This document shows, one piece after another, positions 1 through 39,879 of a DNA stretch of 40,000 nucleotides. The DNA is from Chromera velia. Lineage: Eukaryota > Sar > Chromeraceae. Both the position numbers and the translations under genes were made by a program. The notes under the pieces were generated by a model. It was not told the origin of the DNA. It saw nothing but the letters and a program-made list of their open reading frames with translations, and searched no databases. The stretch is from NCBI GenBank assembly GCA_018398765.1, contig JAHBMJ010001769.1, forward strand, positions 468 through 40,467, written 5' to 3'. Every line of letters begins with the position of its first letter. Position 1 is the first letter of the stretch.

Positions 1-70
1 CACACACACACAGACGCACACACATACAGAAACAGACACATATACATACACACACGCACACACACACATT
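1..70. repeat. CA-rich microsatellite at left edge
   Basis: Imperfect (CA)n tract with interruptions. It lies just beyond the GTAAGA donor of the sensor gene on the minus strand, so it is probably intronic. Confidence 0.85.
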
Positions 71-75
71 CTTAC

Positions 76-1934
76 CTGAAAGAACCAAAACCGCATTGGA
101 TGCACGAGCAGATCCGGGAGGTCTGCGGACAATTCTCCCCATGTCGGTTCTGCAAGCGTGAAGTCTCGTGAGTGTCTCTTGTGCCTGCACACTCGGCATC
201 CAGCTCTGTGCGGTGCATTGTAAGGTTCTTTGTGGGGATACTCGGACAGGTCAATCCATCGATACCCCTCCCGGCCTCTGTGCCCCCCCCTCTCTTTTCC
301 AGCACGAATCTCTTGTATGAGCCACATGAAGGGAACGGGGGGGCTTGATCGTGTTCTCCGAATGCGTTCCCTTTCCCCCCCTTTTCTTCTGATGGTTTCT
401 TCTTTCCTCCGATTCTCAGAACAACTCCAAGTTGGACTCACAGACTGATCGGCTGGGTGGACAGGTGTATCTTCCCATTCCTCTCCATCCTTCTCTCTCT
501 CTTCCCTTCTCTGCCTCTCCCTCTCTGCCTTCAAACGAACTCTCTCTCGAGGCCTCTCAGATCCTGTCAGAGCGGCCAACAAACGACTGGCTTGATCCCC
601 CCCACGACCCCCCCCCTCACGCGACTGCTGAAGCCGACGGGCTATATCCCCGATTCTCTCGTCAAATTCCGTTCCCATCCGCCCGCTCGTACCTGAAACA
701 ATACCCCCCGAAGCCTCAGAGCTCTTATTACCCGCCACCGTGCTAGTTGAATTACCCGTTGCTGCTGCTGCAGCAGCAGCTGCAGCGGCTGCCGCACGGG
801 GGGTAGTGGAAGAACCCGCCACCCCTCCCCCACTCCCCCCACTAGCAACGACAGAACCAAAAGCGGCATTCTCGCCCAGTTGAGTCACAGGAGGCTGGGC
901 GAGGGGATGGACTGCCGCTGCCCCCCCGCCCCCTCGGAGACTGACGGGGCCCGTAGGACGACCTACCCCTACAGGTTTAATGTCCCTGGGTCTCCCTCTT
1001 TTTTGCATCGCCGCTGTCTGCTGCCGTTCGTTCAGAATTTCTGCCGCTTTCCCTCCCTCACCAACAACCTTAGAATACTCTTTGTAAAGCTCGGGCGGAA
1101 GGAAGGACGCCAACACCTCAGAGGGTATGGACAGGTCAGTCATCACAGCTTCTCCCGCATTTTGGGGGTTGGTTGACATCCGCACCTGCACGTTTCTGGC
1201 CCCGGAAAGCGCAGACGAAGGAGCCTGCATTTCTAGGTCTTGCTGCGGCATGCCCCCCCCCGCAGAGAGAGGAAGGTGGCTTCTCTGACCCTCAGGGAGT
1301 TCGAGAATCTGTGCCCCGCAATGCTCGCATGCACCGGGTCTCTGCATGAACTTGGCCATCGAACTGCCGGCCTCAATCGCCAAAACCCGGACGTACCCTT
1401 TCCGCGTGACTTCGACGGTGTCTAACCACCGAAGAGCAGCAGGGATGGCAAGGAGAAGTAGCATGGCGGTGAGGAGGGAGATCATCGCCGTCACCCCCTT
1501 CAACCAAATCAAAACGGTTGCGTTGGAGAATATGCCGCTCTCCAGCATTGCGGTCCAGAAGTGAGTTGTGCCGCAAAAGAGAATGAAGAGAATGAAGCAG
1601 ACAGCCATACAAGAAAGTTCAATCTGCAGACAGGGGGCGGGGGGGAGGGAGGAAGGCGCATCTTTCCTTTTGTGTCTCTTGGTGGAGGACAACGGGTCTG
1701 GCAGAGACACTCACGGGTCACTAAATCGACAGAGAGACAGGAAGGCAGATAGATCGGCGAACAGAGGCTTTGCTCGGCTGCCTGCAGAGCTCACTAAGCA
1801 GACCAGACCTACCTGATCTCTTGCTGTGACCACCCGATCGGCCAGCAGTTGGGAGAAGGGGGTATAGTCTGTCTTCAACCGGTACGAAATGGTGAAGAAC
1901 AGAATCTGACAGGGAATGCTCACGTACGCAATGC

Positions 1935-2010
<76 letters not shown>

Positions 2011-2454
2011 GGAGGGGGGAAGGGGGAAGGGGGAAGTTCAGAGATAGATTCAGAGAGAAGAGACCTCTGTGCGTGAATCAGGTTAAGAGAGGATCCAGGA
2101 GACGAGGGCTGGAAGGCGGGCGAGGGGTTCACAGCCAAGCAGAGAGCGCGCAAGACTGCCCAGAAAAGGTCGACAATGGCTGAAAAGAGAGATCTCAAGA
2201 GATGGGACCGCTCAAAGGCGAGCAGACAGGCTCCAAGCCACGTGAAAAAACGACACTCTCACACCGAAAAGAAATTGGTTGGGCGAGAGACGGCAAAGTG
2301 ATGCCCCCCTCTTTCGACCTGCCCGGAGGTTCCGAGCACAGCGCCATGAACACACTCAAGTCTTCTTCCGTTACTCATGCACTCACTTACTGGTCGCGAT
2401 GTCGAACCAGACGGAGAGAATGTCCCCTGCCCCGAGGTGAGGAGACTCCGCCAT
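76..2454 (-). CDS. Ethylene-receptor-like membrane sensor, N-terminal part (gene continues past left edge)
   Basis: Exons: 2454-2391, 1934-1813 and 1623-76. Their phases agree (1, then 0), and donors are GTAAGT, GTAGGT and GTAAGA. The ATG at 2454 opens a 578-residue visible part. Three hydrophobic segments (about residues 12-38, 65-88 and 97-126) match the ETR1-type ethylene-binding domain. Asp18, Tyr25, Ile28 and Pro29 lie in segment 1 with ETR1 spacing (Asp25, Tyr32, Ile35, Pro36). FCGTTHF holds Cys79 and His83, equivalent to the Cu(I) ligands Cys65 and His69. Lys104 begins segment 3, followed by a conserved-looking IP near 122. In the family this domain binds ethylene through copper in the ER or plasma membrane and signals to a GAF/histidine-kinase part. 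No GAF or kinase is visible here. Instead there is CEHC (161-164), an Ala/Gly/Ser-rich linker, a charged segment and a CRVC motif. The last exon stays open into the left edge, so any output domain lies outside. An undetected intron inside the long third exon is possible. Confidence 0.8.
1937..2008. repeat. Composite (CA)n(GA)n microsatellite abutting a splice acceptor
   Basis: On the minus strand this reads (CT)n then (GT)n then GCAG, and leads straight into exon 2 of the ethylene-receptor-like gene at 1934. It therefore occupies the polypyrimidine-tract position of the intron. Confidence 0.9.
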
Positions 2455-3315: not shown

Positions 3316-6300
3316 ATGACAGGTGGTGCAGGGCAACCGAGCATCTTTACTGGTGTCGTGGGTGCCAGGGGTGCCTCGGTGCCTGCGACTCCGTTCGATC
3401 TTCTGATCAGTTGTGGGGACTATGGGATGAAGGTCTCGGTCAGTCTGCATGTCAGGCAGACTGAGTCGTTCTTTGTTGGTTGGCTGGGTTTATCTGAACT
3501 GCAAGCGGCATTCCTCTGTCTGGTCAACGGTTTGTGAGCTCACCTGCCCTGTTTCCATGCACCTCTCCCTCCCTCTCTGCATGCATCCCCCCCCCTGCAG
3601 GTACCCTCGAAGGCCATCCGTTTGCTGGTGCTCTCCTTCAACGACATTGTCTCCTTCACTATTCACGAGAAGGAGAAGGACGCGGAGAAGGCAGAGAGCG
3701 GCAGGCCAAGACAAAGACAGACAGGAGCCCCACTCTTCCAGGCCAAACAGAGGGTCTCTTACTTCTTCTCCTGCACCAAAGACTTCGCCAAGGAAATTGA
3801 CATGCCCCTCCTTGACATGCGGCGGGGGGGTACTGAAGGGAAGCTCGTGGGGTCTCTGCGCGTGGTGATTCACTGCGTCGACCAGTCTCTCTCTGCTGCA
3901 ATGGGGTCCGACTCCCAAGTGAGCAAGTCCGTTGAGTCGCGGTTCAAGAAAAGACTCGCGAGAGCAGTAGAACGTTATGTGGAGGTGAAGGAATCTTGTC
4001 AGTTTCTTCCGATCGCCCTGGAGGAGGAGAAGGACAGAGGACAGAGAAAGGGGGAAGGGAAAAAGAACAGTGCCGACGCTCCGTCCGTAACGCTCCCTGC
4101 CTCATCTCACCCCCCTTTCCTGAATCCCTCAGGACATACTCCGGGCTCTGTGTCTGCTCACCCGTCTGTATCTCAAGTACACTACCCTGAGGGGAACCCC
4201 CCCGCTCCAACAGAAGGAGTCCCCCCCACTGCCCCTTCATCTTTCCATCAGAATACATTCTCAAAAGCCCATGATCATATTTCGTCTGCACAATTTCAGG
4301 GGGCACCAGCAGCAGGACTAGTGGGAGGATTTGAGGGAAGTATGCTTATGAACGCAAACACAAGTACAGGTTTCGGGCCCGCAAGAGGGCAACACAGAAG
4401 TGCAGAGCGTACGCGGCCCGTCGAGGCTCCATCCCCTTCTTTCTTTGAGTCTCAGCAGCCCACTCGGCAGAAGAGTGCACCCAGACTCTCGGGCTCTCTC
4501 TCAACGGGTGGGGGTGGAAGTTCGTCTCTCTCTCATTCTTTCCTCCCCCCTCCGTTCTTACAGCCCCCGACGAGGCAAGTCGAGAGTGAGAGGGAGGAAA
4601 TGCCTCCCCCCTCTGTGTTAGTCGTACACCACTCCAATGCCTCAGCCTCAGCTGCCGCTCTCTCCCCTACAGCTCCAACACAAACGTCAATGCTTCAACT
4701 GGGTCACCGGGCATCTCCCCTACACCCCCACAGCCCCCCTCCCCCTCTCCCACCCCACGACCTTGCAGCCTCTCAATTTATCCCACCAGATTCAAACAGA
4801 CTTCCTCCCCACGCGAACGCACACTTCCACGGAGTGCACATCCGTTCGGCTGCACAGCAGCAGTCCCTCACCCCCCCTTCATCCTTTGTTCCTCCATTCC
4901 CCCCCCACGCCCTCCTCCCTCTCCCCCGCGACCCCACGGGAGGAAGGGGCGTTCCCGTCTCCTCTGCCTCTGGTGCCATTGCCCGGTCCTCTGTCTACGG
5001 TCCCTCCCCCCCCTCTTCCATACGCTCTCCACCCCCACCGCAGACAATCCCCGCCAATCACTTCCCCCAAGCAGTGCAACCAGTACCCCCCCACATCACA
5101 TCAAGCATCCCACAACAAGTCAACCCATCCTCAGCCCAAATGGTGATGCAACACCACTGGCAGCAGCAGCAGGGTAACAACGTTGGAGGGCCAGTGTCCA
5201 GGTTGAGCTACGGACTGACCATCCGAAGCACCGGAGCGGCCCCCCACCCCCACCCCCCCATGCACCCCTGTGCGTACCCCCAAATGCAGATGCAGACGAT
5301 GGTACAACCCCAAGCCCAGGTCCAAACAACCACCCAGACGGGGCTGTCTGTCTCTCATCACCAGCCTTCCGAGTCCTGCCTCAGCCGATCTGTGACCGAC
5401 GATCTCCGTCTGCCGACCTCTGCAGGCAGTGTGGTGGGGGCCCGTGCGGCTGCAGGGAGCTGCCAACCGACCCCGGTCACTCAAGCGACCCAGCCGGTGG
5501 ACGATCAGCCGGTCGTATCACCCCTGGCGTCATCACGCATGCATCAGGCACATGAGGAAGGAGAAGGAGAGAATAAATATGAAATGAATGATAACCATGC
5601 GTGTATCTCTTCAGTTCCCGTCCCTTCGTTTGCTTCCGTTCTACAGGAAGGTGCGTATGGGAGGAAAAGATCCCTTTCAAGGGAGAGGGGGGCCCTCAGG
5701 GGTGCCTCCCAGACAGACCCCCGGGACAGCCTGATTCAACTGTCTTCTTCTTCTGTCCGCGTTCAGACTCCAGGGAGGGCAGCGGGACACCAAATTGTCG
5801 GCACTGGGAGTGCGTTACCGTTTTCTTCGAGTGAGTGGGACAAGAAATATGTAGAGAGCCGACCTGCTCAACAGCAAGACGAGCCAAGGCGGGAGGTGCA
5901 AATGAGGTCAATTGTGTGTCCAGTAGTTCAGCCTGTGGTCTCTGCTTCAGAGGACCGGCTTCTAGAGAATACAGAGAAGGAAGGGAAGAGAGCAGAGGGG
6001 TTTTGTGATGAAGAGGGGGGTGAAGCTGCTCCGTCTGCCTCCTGGTGTTGTGATTCCAGGCCCCGGCCTGGCGCACACGAAGAGAGAGAGAAAGTGACAA
6101 TGCCGCCGTTGCCCTTGACAGAATTGATGGCCGCTGCTTGCACCTCTGGTGTTCATGAGGTCGACAGAGTGGGGGGGGAGGGTTGGGATGGAATGGGGGC
6201 AGGGGAGGGAGACGGGTCTTCTTCGTCTTTGTACTCCTCATCCTCTACCCGTCTTCCTGGACACGTCTCCCATCTTTCAGTCAACAGGAGCGCTCTTGTA

Positions 6301-9300
6301 GAGGTAGGGGGGGAGAGGGGGAAGGGGAAATTGAGGGGGGAGTTGGAGGAACCTGAACCAGCACTGCCCGGTACCTCGGTGCACATTACAATGGGAGGAG
6401 GAGAGGACGCTGTGTTTCCTCCCCAACATGGCTCTCTGCCCCTCTGCCAGGCCTCTGCTTCGTCTTCTTCCTCTTCCTCTTCTGGGCAGACAGAGAAGGA
6501 CATGGGGCAGAAGGGGGGAGTGTACGGACAGAAAGGGAAGAGGGGGGCCGAGGGGGTGCCTGTTCAGGTCTCAAGCTTGGACAAAAAGAAGAACGGAAAG
6601 GGGGGAGAGAAGAGTGCTGTGCACATTTCAAGTACAGGGTCAGGCAGTGGGGGTAAGTCGGCATTGGGGGGGAAGAATGGGAAGAGGGGGACTGCGGGGA
6701 GTCTACACCTCCGCAGTCAGAAGGAGAACAGAAAAAACTCCGAAAAACCTGCACCCCTCCCCTCAAACCCATACCCTGAAGAGACCACCCCAGTTCAACC
6801 CACACCCTCCAACGACACTGCATTCCTCTCTCTTGCACCTCCCACCTCCAGCCCACCGAAGCAGATCGAGGTAGGCGAACACATTGAATCCCAGGAGGGA
6901 GATACAGGAATTGCACATGGCCCAGAGGAGCCGAGACAGCCTCTTTCCTTCCCCCTTGCCGACCCGCAGTTTGAGTCGAGGGGGACCGAGGTTGAAGAAG
7001 CAGCACTCGTCAGTGATGTCAAGCAGAAAGAGACAGATCTAGGCCCTATCCGACCAGAACAGCATGCAGGCTGTGAAGAGGGGGACCACCAAAGAACATC
7101 GTTCGACCCCCCCAACCCCCCCGAGGCTGAAGGGAACCCCTCCGTTCTCTCCGAAGCCGACGCTGAGGCTCCTCAGTCTCAGGCGGTTCCTCCTCAGTCT
7201 CGTCGGACCCTTCCTTTGGGGGCCGCACGAGAGGAGGACAGACCGGAGGCCGCACGAGACATGGCGGCAGTGGCTCGGCGTCTCCTTTCCGTTTGTCGTC
7301 GGGCTGGGTTTCCTGCCGGTGCGCAGTCGATAGACATTGGGTTTGGAGGTCTGTCTCTCGAGGCCTTGAACCTGCCGATTTCCGAACAATGTCATGCATC
7401 ATCGGGTCAATTAGACGGCCCCCTTGGCGGCCTTGGGGAGGGGGAGATCGGAGGGTCGGGAGCTCCGCCAAGCCCCCCTCTGGATGCGGGTCCGTTTTGG
7501 TCTGCGCGTGGTGAGAGAGACAGAGAAGGTACAGAGGAGTGCAGAAGAGGGGAGTGGGAAAGGGAGAGAGAATCGGGAGGAGGAGGGGGACTGCCTCGGC
7601 TTTCGGCTTTGCCTCTGCCATCTTCTGGTGCGGGGGGGAATATGAATATGTATGCAGAGGCGGACAGCTGGGGGGAAGGGGAACTGCCGGAAGCCTCGGC
7701 ACGTCTGGAGCCTGTTGCTGAGAGTCATGAAGAGGAGGAAGAGGAGGGTGAGGACGCTTCTGGAAACGTCGATGTGCAGAAAGTGGGAGAAGGGGGGGGA
7801 GTGTTAGAAATGGAAGAAAGACAAGATGAAAAGGCAAGAAAAGGAGAAGGGAATTTGGTCTCGTCTTCTGCTCCTTCAGGGGAGTCATTTGAGGAGGCAT
7901 TACAACCATACAAGGACCTCATTCTGGTCAGTCCGTCAGTCAATGAGTGGAGAATTTTGAATCTCGTCATCCTTCCTTCCCTCTCCCTTCCTTTCTTCCT
8001 TCCTTCCTTCCCTCTCCCTCCCTTCCTTGCACCCGCATTCTGACTTTTTTTTCTTTGCTTCTCTCCTTCCCTTACCTCTCCTCTCCTATGCTTTCCTCTT
8101 AGTCTCTTCTGCCCTTTACTTTCTCTTTCTCCTTTCCCTTGTTTTGTTTCGTAGGTCCTTGAGAGGAAGCTGGAAAAGATGAACGTGCTGGAGGCTCAGT
8201 GCACGTCCCTGCGTGTGGAGAGCTCGCGCCTCAGACAGAGAGAGGAGGAGAGAGACGCCAGCGAGAGGGTGCAGGAGGAAGAGGAGAGAGCGCTGTCTCT
8301 GTCTTTGAGTGCCAGACAGAGAGGAAGTGCGCAAACCGAGAGAGAAGAGGGTGCAGAGGACCATGCCTCCTCTGCTGCCCTCCGACTCTGCACGTCGAAG
8401 GCTGTTGGTGCCCCCGAGTCTGGCGGAGGGAAGCTTTCGGACTTGGTCAAGGAGGTGTTGAAGAGAAACGAAGAGCTGGAGAACGAACTGGAGGTCGGTC
8501 GGGTGCACGGGATTTGCAGGTGTTCTTTTGGAAGAATTTGTATATGTATATCTGCGTGTGTGTGTGTGAGAGAGAGGAAGAGAGGTTGTTGTGTCCTTCT
8601 TCTTCGTCAAGGAAGGCCTTTTCATTTCCCGCGGGCGGGAGTCTGGCCGAATGATGACTTTTTTGTTCTCCATGTGAGCGCATCTCCTTTTTTTTCCTGC
8701 AGCAATCTCGACAGAAGCTCTCCCCCTTTTTTTTCCTGCAGCAATCTCGACAGAAGCTCTCGCACTCTTCGGAGGCTGCGGATGGACCTGGGGGAGTGGG
8801 CAGGGAGAAGGGGAAAAGAAGCGCTTTGCAAGGGGGGCCTGCAGGAGCAGGTCTAGGTGCAGGGAGAGGATCTCGTCGTTCCCCCTTTCCGCCTTTTTCT
8901 TCTTCTTCTCGGTCTCTGTCTCTGGGTGACGATCCCCTTCCTTCCTCCAACTGCGGTTCTTCTTCCAATGACTCCACCACGGCTTGTACCCTGTCGTTGT
9001 CTTCTTCTCTGAAGGCTCGATTGGCAGAGAGGGAAGCTGAATTGGAAACCGAGAGGGGAAGAAGAGAGGAGAAAGAGGCAGAGGCGGCCAACCTGTCCAG
9101 ACAGTGCGCGTCAGTTTGCGTTTTCTTTTCTGTCTGGTTCTGGACCGTCTTTCCCTTTTTTTTCTTCCGTGCGTATTCCCATCTTTTTTGTCATTGGAAG
9201 AATCCACACAATTTTTGTTGTTGGAAGAATTCACACATTCGTATGGACACACAGCGAGGGGAGAGAGCCGGAAAGGAATTCTCAATCAATCAGGGAAGCT

Positions 9301-27300: not shown

Positions 27301-28426
27301 ACTGACTGACTGACGCTTTTGAGTGACTTGAGTCTCTTCTCTGCCCTCTCGATCTCCTGACTCCTTTTCTGGATGCTCGCACGGAGCTTCTTCTCGTCTG
27401 CCGTCAGGTCAGCCATCGAGGCCCTGCAGAAATTCGATCATCCGTTCGCGAATGAATGGCATACACGCATGAATCATTCATGGAAACACGAAGTAGAAGC
27501 AGAGGGCCGTTGAGGAAGGACAACACGAAAAGCACAGCATCAGGGGGAAACAAACATTCAAGCACCCTCTTTGCGTACGGACAGATAAATTACATGCATC
27601 TCATCCCTCGTCCGCCAATGGTCAAATGGACATTTCATTCTCTCAATCAGAGGGAACGATTTGTGTTTCTCGCTTCCTTCTCCCCTTTGCGCCCTGATTC
27701 CTTCATACGATTTTTCCTTCACGGTTTCTGCGACGCGTGAAGAGATACATGACAGAACACCTGTCTGACATTCAGTGGTAGGATCGTTTGTCTCTCGACT
27801 GACTTGAGGTCCGAGAGTTTCTCTGCGTCCTGTTTCATCAGTTGGTGGATGGACCTCTCGATGTACTCTGCCTCCGTGTTCCTGTCCAGGTTCCGACTCA
27901 CAGAGTCCAGAAACGCGATGGCCCTCTCTCGTGCTTCGCTGTTCTCCTTCTCCTTTCCCAAAAGATCGTGGAGAGTAGCCCCGCTCTCGAGGAGGGTGGA
28001 GGCTGCCTGTCTGGCTGCTTTGAGGTCGTGCAGTTTGTTGCTGATCTGGAAGTCGGATTGGGCCTCTGCGGCTTGTGCTGCAGAGGAGGAGACTGCGGTC
28101 TTCAGAGATTGGTCCAGAAAGGACGCAAACTTGAGCAGCTCCTTCACAGCATGACCGTCAGACTGGTACAGTTTTTTCGGGTTCAGACGTAGACGGGTTT
28201 TCGAGACGATGATCTCACACGCCTTCGTGATGAACGCGATTCTTTGGCTTTCTGTGTCAATGTCGTCAGGGAGAATGGCTGAAGGGTCATAACGCCGAAC
28301 GAGCCAGTCGAGGATATCGGCAGCCAGGCCGAAGTTGGGAGACCGGAAGGACTCCATCGAGACCGTGCGGGGATACCCCAAGTTTCGGAGAATTTCCCCG
28401 AAGTTTCGGATTTCCCTGTACGACAT
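24388..28426 (-). CDS. IFT38: Intraflagellar transport protein IFT38 (CLUAP1/qilin homolog)
   Basis: Eight exons: 28426-27804, 27423-27315, 26919-26837, 26391-26280, 25781-25734, 25459-25409, 25088-24962 and 24656-24388. All phases agree, giving 473 residues; human CLUAP1 is 413. The start MSYREIRNFGEILRNLGYPR matches the family N-terminus closely, followed by SMESFRSPNFGLAADIL and LNPKKLYQSDGHAVKELLK. This is the calponin-homology-like domain, which in the family contacts other IFT-B2 subunits. Residues from about 125 to 330 are coiled coil, including the family signature VRPAFLDEFERLEEEVQ and NLDYLEHEL. The C-terminus is Gly-rich and acidic, with nine consecutive Asp, as is typical. IFT38 belongs to the IFT-B2 complex, which moves cargo along ciliary microtubules. 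Most donors are GTCAGT, GTCAGA or similar rather than GTAAGT. The small exon 25781-25734 (EWRILRGE...) is supported by phase and by resemblance to other protist IFT38 proteins as I remember them. The GTTGGT donor after it is the weakest point. Confidence 0.9.
27181..27314. repeat. Degenerate (ACTG/ACTC)n repeat in an IFT38 intron
   Basis: About 130 bp of four-base ACTGACTCACTC-type repeats. On the minus strand they read (GTCA)n and begin exactly at the GTCAGT donor of exon 2, so the splice donor is the first unit of the repeat. Confidence 0.85.
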
Positions 28427-30324
<1,898 letters not shown>

Positions 30325-37479: not shown

Positions 37480-39879
37480 TCAGTTCTCTGTTTCTTGTTC
37501 CTCCCCCTCTTCCTCTAACAGTCTGGGCAAATCATCAAAATCCAAAACAGACTCATGAGGCATGCGCTCTCGGGGAGGACGGAAAGAACGGGAACCCGAG
37601 ACCAGGCCTAGGTTGCTCACACGCGCAGTGTACACACACGAATAGTCCTGTACCTGTTTTGCAAACTGGCTCTTCTGGTATCCTGCCTTGAAAAGCTCGC
37701 CCCAGGTGGGGTGGTACACAGCATGCAACTCTAGATTCAATTTCTTCCATCGCTTTGTGACCTCCTCCTGTTTGATTCTTACCTCTCGAATCTCAGCATC
37801 CAGAGCGACTGAGGAAGGGCTGTTATCGTTTGCCTTCCTTCTCTTCCTCTGCTCCATCACGAGAGCGTCAAGGTAGAGGTCTACATCATTCAACTCCCCC
37901 CTCAACTCCTGCAACTGTGCCATTGTTTTCTTCTGAATCTGCTGTGTTCGGACTTCGTAAGCGAGCTCAGGGATGACGAGGCAGGTACGCCACCCGAGGC
38001 TCTTCCTGCCCTCAATAATGTCGGAGTACATGTGATCCCCTACATAGAGGAGCTGCTCCCTGCCTGCCTGCAGGTTGAGGAGATTGTTCAACGTCTTCCA
38101 GTTACCTGCCTGGAACACCTTGCCCTCTGCAAGATACCCATCGACATCTGCAATCAAATCGGGGCATGTATTGAGCAGCCTGCCGTCTTTCGGATCTACT
38201 CGGAAGAGATCCCGGCGATCCGAAAGAAATGCCGGTTTCCCCGCAGCCACGATGATCAGATCGAAGAGATCGAGCCACTCTGTCGTGCGGGTGTGGGGTG
38301 CTTTGTTTCCCATCACAAAATTCATCACGACTGTGGTGTACTCCCAGTGGGAATTGGTGAGGAGGAACACCTTCTTGCCTGCCTCCTTCAACCCTCTGAG
38401 CATGGACAAAACCTCCTTGTCCTCGAAGATGTACTTCTCGGGGTCCTCAGCGACTGTGTCCTTAATCGTGCCGTCGTTATGGCACAGGTCCACTACTCTG
38501 TGTACGTCTGCGAACATCTTTTCGTAGTTCTTCAGACGTCCTTTCTCGACAAGATCAGGCCGACTGTCGTGCAAATCAACAAGCTGAGCAAACAACACCG
38601 CGTCGACCAACTGAAAGAGGGTGTTCAGGGGAACGAAACGGGAGTCTCGAAGAAATGAGGGCAACTTCACCAAAGAACGAACGTACAGATTCAAACGTTC
38701 CTCCCTCGGCATTGGTTTACTGCCGTGGGAAGCAGCTCGAACCGCTTTGTGTTTGTCAATCTTGATGAAGTTACCCAGCTGCTTATCCACCAACAGCCCC
38801 CTTCTAAACAACGTTGGGTCATACCGAAACCCCAAAACTTCCTCGGGATACCCCATAATCTCCACAAGCTTCTTCTTCGCACCCTCGTACGCCAATTCAT
38901 CAAATGCAGTCGTATACTGCGCAAGGGTGAAGTCCATATCGAACCCCACTGCCTTAATCTGAGACATCTGCAGCTCTCTGTTGCAAAAAATGTCCCGATG
39001 GGAAACCAATCGGTGGGGCACGGTGTCCCTAATGATCTCTTCCTCTTCAGGGTCTATCCCTGCACGCTGAAGGACCAAATCCGGACTCGTCTTCAGTCCG
39101 GACAGAGTAGAGGTCACAGACTGAACAGGGATGGACTCTTCTGAGAGCTCTAGTTGCTCTACAGTTGCAGAGGAGCTGTCATCAGGGGGCGCGTCTCTCA
39201 ACAAGCTCTTCTTCGGAGAGAAGACTGCAGACCCTGCGGGCAGGCAGGAAGGGAAGCAGGGAGATGAAACAGAAACAGCGCATGAGGAGTGCCAGAGGAG
39301 AATTCTAAACCACACAAAGCATGAACAGACTGTGGATGCGAAAGGAGTCGAACCTTGCACTCTTTCAAGGCTGAGTCGTTCTTACAAATAGGGTTTACTG
39401 AAAGCCTCGGTGCACGGGAGCCAGGAAGGCGCAGAATGACAAAAGAGCACTAAACGGGCCCGACAGAGCACAAGACGACCACGGGAAAGAAGAGTTATTG
39501 AAACACAGGAGAGAGACGAAGAGACAACCGGGGGGGGGGAAACACAGGAGAGAGAAAAACGAGACGAGACGGGGATTGCATGACAACCAAAGAGAGACGC
39601 GGGAGCTCACTGCATCTAAACCTGTGCACATTTCTTTCAGTTCTGACCTCTGGAAAGGATTCCTGTTCCTTCTTGGTGAAGCCATGATTGGGCAGTCTCT
39701 CGTCGAGAGATGGGAGCCAATGAGACAGGCTCAAATTTGCGATTCAACACGAATGCATTGGCAAAGATCCGGGAAGCTGTGGATATGAAGGCCGCGCTGA
39801 TTAGACTCCGCACAAAACAACTACTCGCTCTCGAGGTGGATGGACCAGTGCCTCTAACTGCAGAGCCCTGCTGAGCCAT
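37480..39879 (-). CDS. HAD-superfamily 5'-nucleotidase (NT5C2/NT5DC-type) with N-terminal extension
   Basis: Two exons, 39879-39648 and 39233-37480, joined in phase 1 (donor GTCAGA), give 661 residues. The catalytic core shows the HAD motifs in order: GFDMDFTLAQY (nucleophile Asp, about residue 176), LLTNSHWEY (motif II), a Lys-containing AAGKPAF segment (motif III) and YVGDHMYSDI (motif IV). FCNRELQMSQIKAVGFDMD is typical of the purine 5'-nucleotidase family, which dephosphorylates nucleoside monophosphates. A coiled, charged C-terminal region ends in a Glu-rich tail. Exon 1 (start ATG at 39879, with an upstream in-frame stop and no earlier ATG) encodes a Ser/Arg/Ala-rich stretch with a hydrophobic patch at about residues 20-45, which could be a signal or transit peptide. 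The exon 2 acceptor could also be at 39224, nine bases downstream and in frame. Substrate is unknown. Confidence 0.88.

Follow-up and report, generated by a model that had tools for sequence, protein, structure and literature searches.

Does a single-celled, photosynthetic relative of the malaria parasites carry a sensor for ethylene, and what would such a sensor do with the signal? The question is raised by a gene near the start of the window, the stretch of 40,000 nucleotides of Chromera velia DNA analysed here as a whole. The predicted membrane-spanning front end of this gene matches the region with which plant receptors hold ethylene. An ethylene-receptor domain in the chromerid clade is already known at clade level. 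According to passages of one review, SAR clades, zooxanthellae and chromerids among them, have homologues of cytokinin and ethylene receptors; their domain arrangements vary, and none had undergone functional tests (PMC7700396). A research paper, in the part that bears on these groups, lists putative ethylene receptors for Zooxanthellae and Chromerida, likewise without functional tests (PMC9603746), and a section of a third source names zooxanthellae among other groups (PMC6944256). These putative receptors resemble the window gene in clade and domain type, and the relevant passages give no gene names (PMC7700396, PMC9603746). The novelty implied in the preliminary description is not supported. 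In a term search, neither ethylene nor histidine kinase came up in the main text of the published chromerid genome study (PMC4501334), and the portions of the literature searched contained no residue-level case, no family of three and no account of kinase absence beside the domain.

Gene structure

The readable part of the gene consists of three predicted exons on the minus strand; like all exon models in this study, they are based on splice motifs and homology. Exon 1 (2391..2454, 64 bp) begins with an ATG at 2454, encodes the first half of helix 1 including Asp18 (D25 of ETR1), and ends at a GTAAGT donor. Intron 1 (1935..2390, 456 bp, GTAAGT..GCAG) has GA/CA simple repeats inside. Exon 2 (1813..1934, 122 bp) encodes the remainder of helix 1, with Tyr25, Ile28 and Pro29 (Y32, I35 and P36), and the bulk of a long loop between helices 1 and 2. 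Intron 2 (1624..1812, 189 bp, GTAGGT..GCAG) is followed by exon 3 (76..1623, 1548 bp in frame), which encodes helices 2 and 3 with Ile76, Cys79, His83 and Lys104 (I62, C65, H69 and K91), and then a long low-complexity part. Within exon 3, the helix 2-3 part of the domain occupies 1399..1623 (residues 63-137), and the tail beyond the domain occupies 76..1398 (residues 138-578), with a CEHC motif and Ala/Gly-rich and charged stretches. A third-intron donor, GTAAGA, lies at 70..75, and the later exons fall outside the readable contig. The joined product is 578 residues long up to the donor at 75, and the gene continues past the readable contig. The exon coordinates first proposed (2454-2391, 1934-1813 and 1623-76) are right; the introns are of the GT..AG type, and the exons join in frame. 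Two diverged sister genes that keep the same pattern support the predicted splice model. On the opposite strand, a 1501-aa stop-free low-complexity frame (3538-8043, plus strand) adjoins the receptor gene.

An ETR1-type domain at the N-terminus

A profile search of the joined exons had been suggested as a check on the domain. It gave a match to PF25487 (Ethylene receptor 1-like N-terminal domain, ETR1_N) at 35.3 bits (E 1.4e-8), where the curated cut-off is 27, and this is the sole Pfam-A family in the window protein up to E 1; the query continued for 25 residues beyond the last donor. On its own, exon 3 likewise exceeds the cut-off (30.0 against 27 bits, residues 4-65 of the exon) and reaches 31.0 bits with 29 extra residues in front. 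Because exon 3 passes by itself, the verdict on the domain is independent of the splice model.

A home-built profile of 20 cyanobacterial and 8 plant-type domains points the same way. It scores the window domain at 33.7 bits, with 11.4 bits for the best of 3000 shuffles (1000 for each of three copies) and 9.8 bits for the best shuffle of the window's own sequence. The ETR1-type domain is common in plants: among the best 120 of 857 matches, the entries that name an organism are all land plants. The plant-type rows were drawn from these 120 and comprise 7 named plants and an unnamed transcript, P0030, which is 96% identical to the query. Cyanobacterial titles stand on all 80 loci kept of 481; from these 80, the 20 rows were picked for genus spread, and none was dropped later. 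The same 20 and 8 reference rows were used in the profile, the tree and the residue comparison.

Hydropathy indicates three hydrophobic regions in the window protein, at about residues 10-41, 56-91 and 92-135. BLASTP aligns the domain to a plant receptor with 28% identity across 97 columns (E 5e-5 when a single comparison is counted). A single-sequence search of a large protein database gave no match at E<=0.001 among 652 candidates. A small-profile search of the same kind gave none among 993 candidates, where a query of ~130 residues reaches only proteins of similar length and full-length receptors are out of reach. The PDB sequences held no match up to E 10, and NCBIfam gave only one far match below cut-off. 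At the level of sequence, the Pfam match, the profile, the residues and the two sister genes establish the three-helix N-terminus as a genuine, diverged ETR1-type domain, and the earlier assignment to an ethylene-receptor-type transmembrane domain stands on the same four lines of evidence.

Residues of the predicted sensor

All eight ETR1 residues D25, Y32, I35, P36, I62, C65, H69 and K91 are kept in the window protein, as D18, Y25, I28, P29, I76, C79, H83 and K104. Seven of them had been named correctly in the preliminary description, and I76, the equivalent of I62, can be added to its list. Ten positions were compared across 31 rows. D25, Y32, I62, C65, H69 and K91 are identical in 20/20 cyanobacterial, 8/8 plant-type and 3/3 alveolate rows, and I35 and P36 are kept in every row except one sister copy, C3632. 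Position 31 of the window protein is Ala, as in plants. Position 38 is Gln, where plants have Glu and the cyanobacterial rows Thr or Met. The spacing had been described as that of ETR1, which is accurate inside the D-Y-I-P and C-H blocks but not between blocks. P29 and C79 are 50 residues apart, as opposed to 29 in ETR1, which lengthens the helix 1-2 loop by 21 residues, and H83 and K104 are 21 residues apart instead of 22.

We take the seven binding residues to be D25, Y32, I35, P36, I62, C65 and H69. The window copy has 7/7, as does the sister copy C855, and C3632 has 5/7. Plant ETR1 forms a covalent dimer through an N-terminal Cys pair; no such pair was found in the window protein, whose first 29 residues are free of Cys. 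The ethylene-binding domain of plants is followed by a GAF domain and a kinase, and in cyanobacterial receptors a kinase is usually next after the sensor domain. The window protein is like the plant ETR1 family in its three helices and eight residues, and differs from it in overall identity, the longer loop, Gln at 38, the lack of the Cys pair and the lack of a GAF domain or kinase in the visible tail. With cyanobacterial ETR1-type receptors such as SynEtr1 it shares the sensor residues, and it differs from them at position 38 and in that a kinase is not seen in the visible protein.

Seven conserved residues are needed for ethylene binding, according to passages of PMC6944256. As described in parts of PMC11819568, C65 of ETR1 holds copper, a model has D25 positioning H69 and pairing with the helix 3 residue K91, K91 takes part in output, and binding is abolished by loss of C65 or D25. 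In simulations covered in a portion of PMC6586836, C65 and H69 hold copper, with D25 joining them at times. Since C65, D25, H69 and K91 are kept in 3/3 alveolate copies, copper-dependent ethylene binding is our best guess for the window copy.

Sister copies of the domain

The genome that was searched comprises 178 Mb in 4040 contigs. Two further loci carry the domain, C855 on the minus strand and C3632 on the plus strand. Their unjoined Pfam matches (18.3 and 23.7 bits) are below cut-off. When the exons are joined at GT..AG sites, both exceed it, with 38.4 bits for C855 and 39.3 bits for C3632 on PF25487. The same profile had matches in three of 14 control genomes, over cut-off in none. On the home-built profile C3632 scores 32.8 bits and C855 18.6 bits, the latter with much bias correction. 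Used as queries, both sisters retrieve the window gene (E 1.4e-6 for C855 and 2.4e-7 for C3632), and the identity to the window domain is 34% for each. C855 and C3632 gave no significant match to each other. Two other loci, C818 and C1021, were considered as extra copies and set aside as weak candidates in which the motif is absent.

C855 keeps all eight ETR1 residues. C3632 (L006, about 7091-8117) has Leu at I35 and Ser at P36, both of which are invariant in the other 30 rows. Because P36 is missing, ethylene binding is less sure for C3632, and with these two substitutions its domain may lack it. In the C855 gene (L005, 799-1011), the last domain exon has its end (WLDS-EVTRK) repeated in tandem, as three 59-nt copies spaced 76 and 78.

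Downstream of the sister domains, the frames of C855 and C3632 have one segment in common (L008, about 563-660, minus strand, and L007, about 4035-4090, plus strand). It is 50% identical over 20 residues and scores 26.6 bits, equal to the domain exons; the best score of an opposite-strand C3632 control is 24.6. In both genes the segment starts directly after an acceptor-like polypyrimidine-CAG site, with the phase identical in the two, and it lies about 4 and 6 kb past the domain. By eye it is ankyrin-repeat-like, and it has no Pfam match. Comparison of the window tail with either sister showed no such segment there. The common segment is a hint of a shared tail in C855 and C3632, and is suggestive only. 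About 20 kb past the C3632 copy lies a gene (L024, 8126-9947, plus strand) that by eye is serine/threonine protein kinase-like and has a hydrophobic leader.

The region after the sensor domain

Residues 138-578 of the window protein (441 residues) contain no GAF, kinase or other Pfam family up to E 1, and this tail is low-complexity and charged in appearance. A search of the rest of the genome with the piece that follows the domain gave no clear relative; a single 22.6-bit match contains stops. The preliminary description had spoken of a protist with an ethylene-type receptor. Of that claim, the putative sensor domain is borne out, and the visible part of the protein has no kinase.

The genome is rich in two-component parts. 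HisKA accounts for 87 matches at E<=1, many below cut-off (101/101 candidates scored), and receivers for at least 50 (50/139 candidates scored). To our knowledge, so many two-component genes are unusual for an alveolate. The contigs that bear the three copies (C1766, C855 and C3632) contain none of the 87 HisKA matches, in a search that could miss an exon-split HisKA, and none of 38 HATPase matches (38/154 candidates scored). Beyond the sister domains, stretches of about 9 kb for C855 and 21 kb for C3632 were scanned for histidine-kinase box motifs, and none was found. The same scan found at least one motif in each of three control kinase loci, and it is incomplete, as it missed the serine/threonine-kinase-like gene in L024. 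Among 22 open frames that were picked by eye from the sequence following the sister domains, none of them from L024, no Pfam family exceeded its cut-off. These downstream negatives are limited by domains split by exons, undefined gene ends, partly scanned frames and the unreadable later exons of the window gene. The best match to an EIN3-type factor has 16 bits, the cut-off being 27; this search went through the genome exon by exon, had 2 candidates and could miss an exon-split gene. As no EIN3-type factor in the genome is over cut-off, this result speaks against a plant-like pathway.

Host genome and origin of the gene

The surroundings of the gene are eukaryotic. Alveolin repeats give 11 matches in the genome and light-harvesting proteins 58, of which two fall on the contig of the window; one control bacterium passes the alveolin family too, and one control cyanobacterium the light-harvesting one. 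These matches bear out the earlier description of the host as a probable alveolate, and they fit a chromerid. Elsewhere in the window, a 633-aa open frame (37483-39381, minus strand) encodes a 5'-nucleotidase family protein (PF05761, 488.8 bits), and an exon of a Cluap1 family gene lies at 27722-28477 on the minus strand (PF10234, 210.5 bits). Cluap1 is a ciliary transport protein. The introns and the eukaryotic neighbours support a resident nuclear gene, as first proposed.

In a tree of 31 rows, the three alveolate domains form a group of their own (99/99), separate from the plant and cyanobacterial rows. Their end branches measure 0.88, 2.28 and 7.02 changes per column. Because these branches are very long, a plastid and a lateral origin are not separable by the tree, which supports neither.

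Interpretation

The window gene probably encodes an ethylene/Cu(I) sensor with an ETR1-type N-terminus and a non-classical output through a long, mostly disordered cytosolic tail. In the proposed mechanism, the domain would form a dimer in an internal membrane, with Asp18, Cys79 and His83 placed to hold Cu(I) and Lys104 placed to relay a change. The copper would bind ethylene or a similar small alkene, and binding would alter the state of the cytosolic tail, which may serve as a long, mostly disordered, partner-recruiting region instead of the plant array of GAF domain and histidine kinase.

A classical hybrid histidine-kinase ethylene receptor, with its kinase in unreadable exons past a long linker, would fit the many kinase parts of the genome (87 HisKA matches at E<=1, at least 38 HATPase with 38/154 scored, and at least 50 receivers with 50/139 scored) and a gene that extends beyond its last visible exon. 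The homologues are also placed within histidine-kinase signalling by the review that mentions chromerids, in the passages concerned (PMC7700396). This arrangement appears unlikely, given 441 visible residues past the domain with no Pfam family, sister contigs with no HisKA match anywhere on them, and about 9 kb (C855) and 21 kb (C3632) of downstream sequence in which the incomplete motif scan found no histidine-kinase box. We are equally doubtful that a domain of ethylene-binding ancestry now senses something else, such as copper or another small ligand, or is only structural. The long branches, Ser for P36 and Leu for I35 in C3632, and the lack of an EIN3 match over cut-off would suit such a change of function, whereas C65, H69, D25 and K91 are kept in 3/3 copies and the window copy keeps all eight positions.

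The domain is short and hydrophobic and single-sequence searches gave no match, as might be expected if a hydrophobic stretch resembled the receptor by chance; with three separate genes over the Pfam cut-off and 0/3000 shuffles near the window score, such a coincidence is very improbable. Contaminating bacterial or plant DNA might be suspected from a domain that is common in plants and cyanobacteria. The GT..AG introns, the eukaryotic neighbours and the light-harvesting exons on the same contig make this source extremely improbable, and no close bacterial or plant sequence was found.

Returning to the sensor with a non-classical output, a broader proposal can be made tentatively, and we hold it to be somewhat less than an even prospect. 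This chromerid may have a small family of kinase-less ethylene-binding-domain proteins, in which a plant/cyanobacterial sensor was uncoupled from two-component signalling and joined to a new cytosolic output, mostly disordered and perhaps with ankyrin-like exons common to two copies, despite the many histidine kinases of this photosynthetic alveolate. In this relative of apicomplexan parasites, which is photosynthetic, a putative sensor that retains all the key residues known would provide a way to test ethylene as a signal. The same putative sensor would also provide a way to test the wiring of such a sensor to something other than a histidine kinase.
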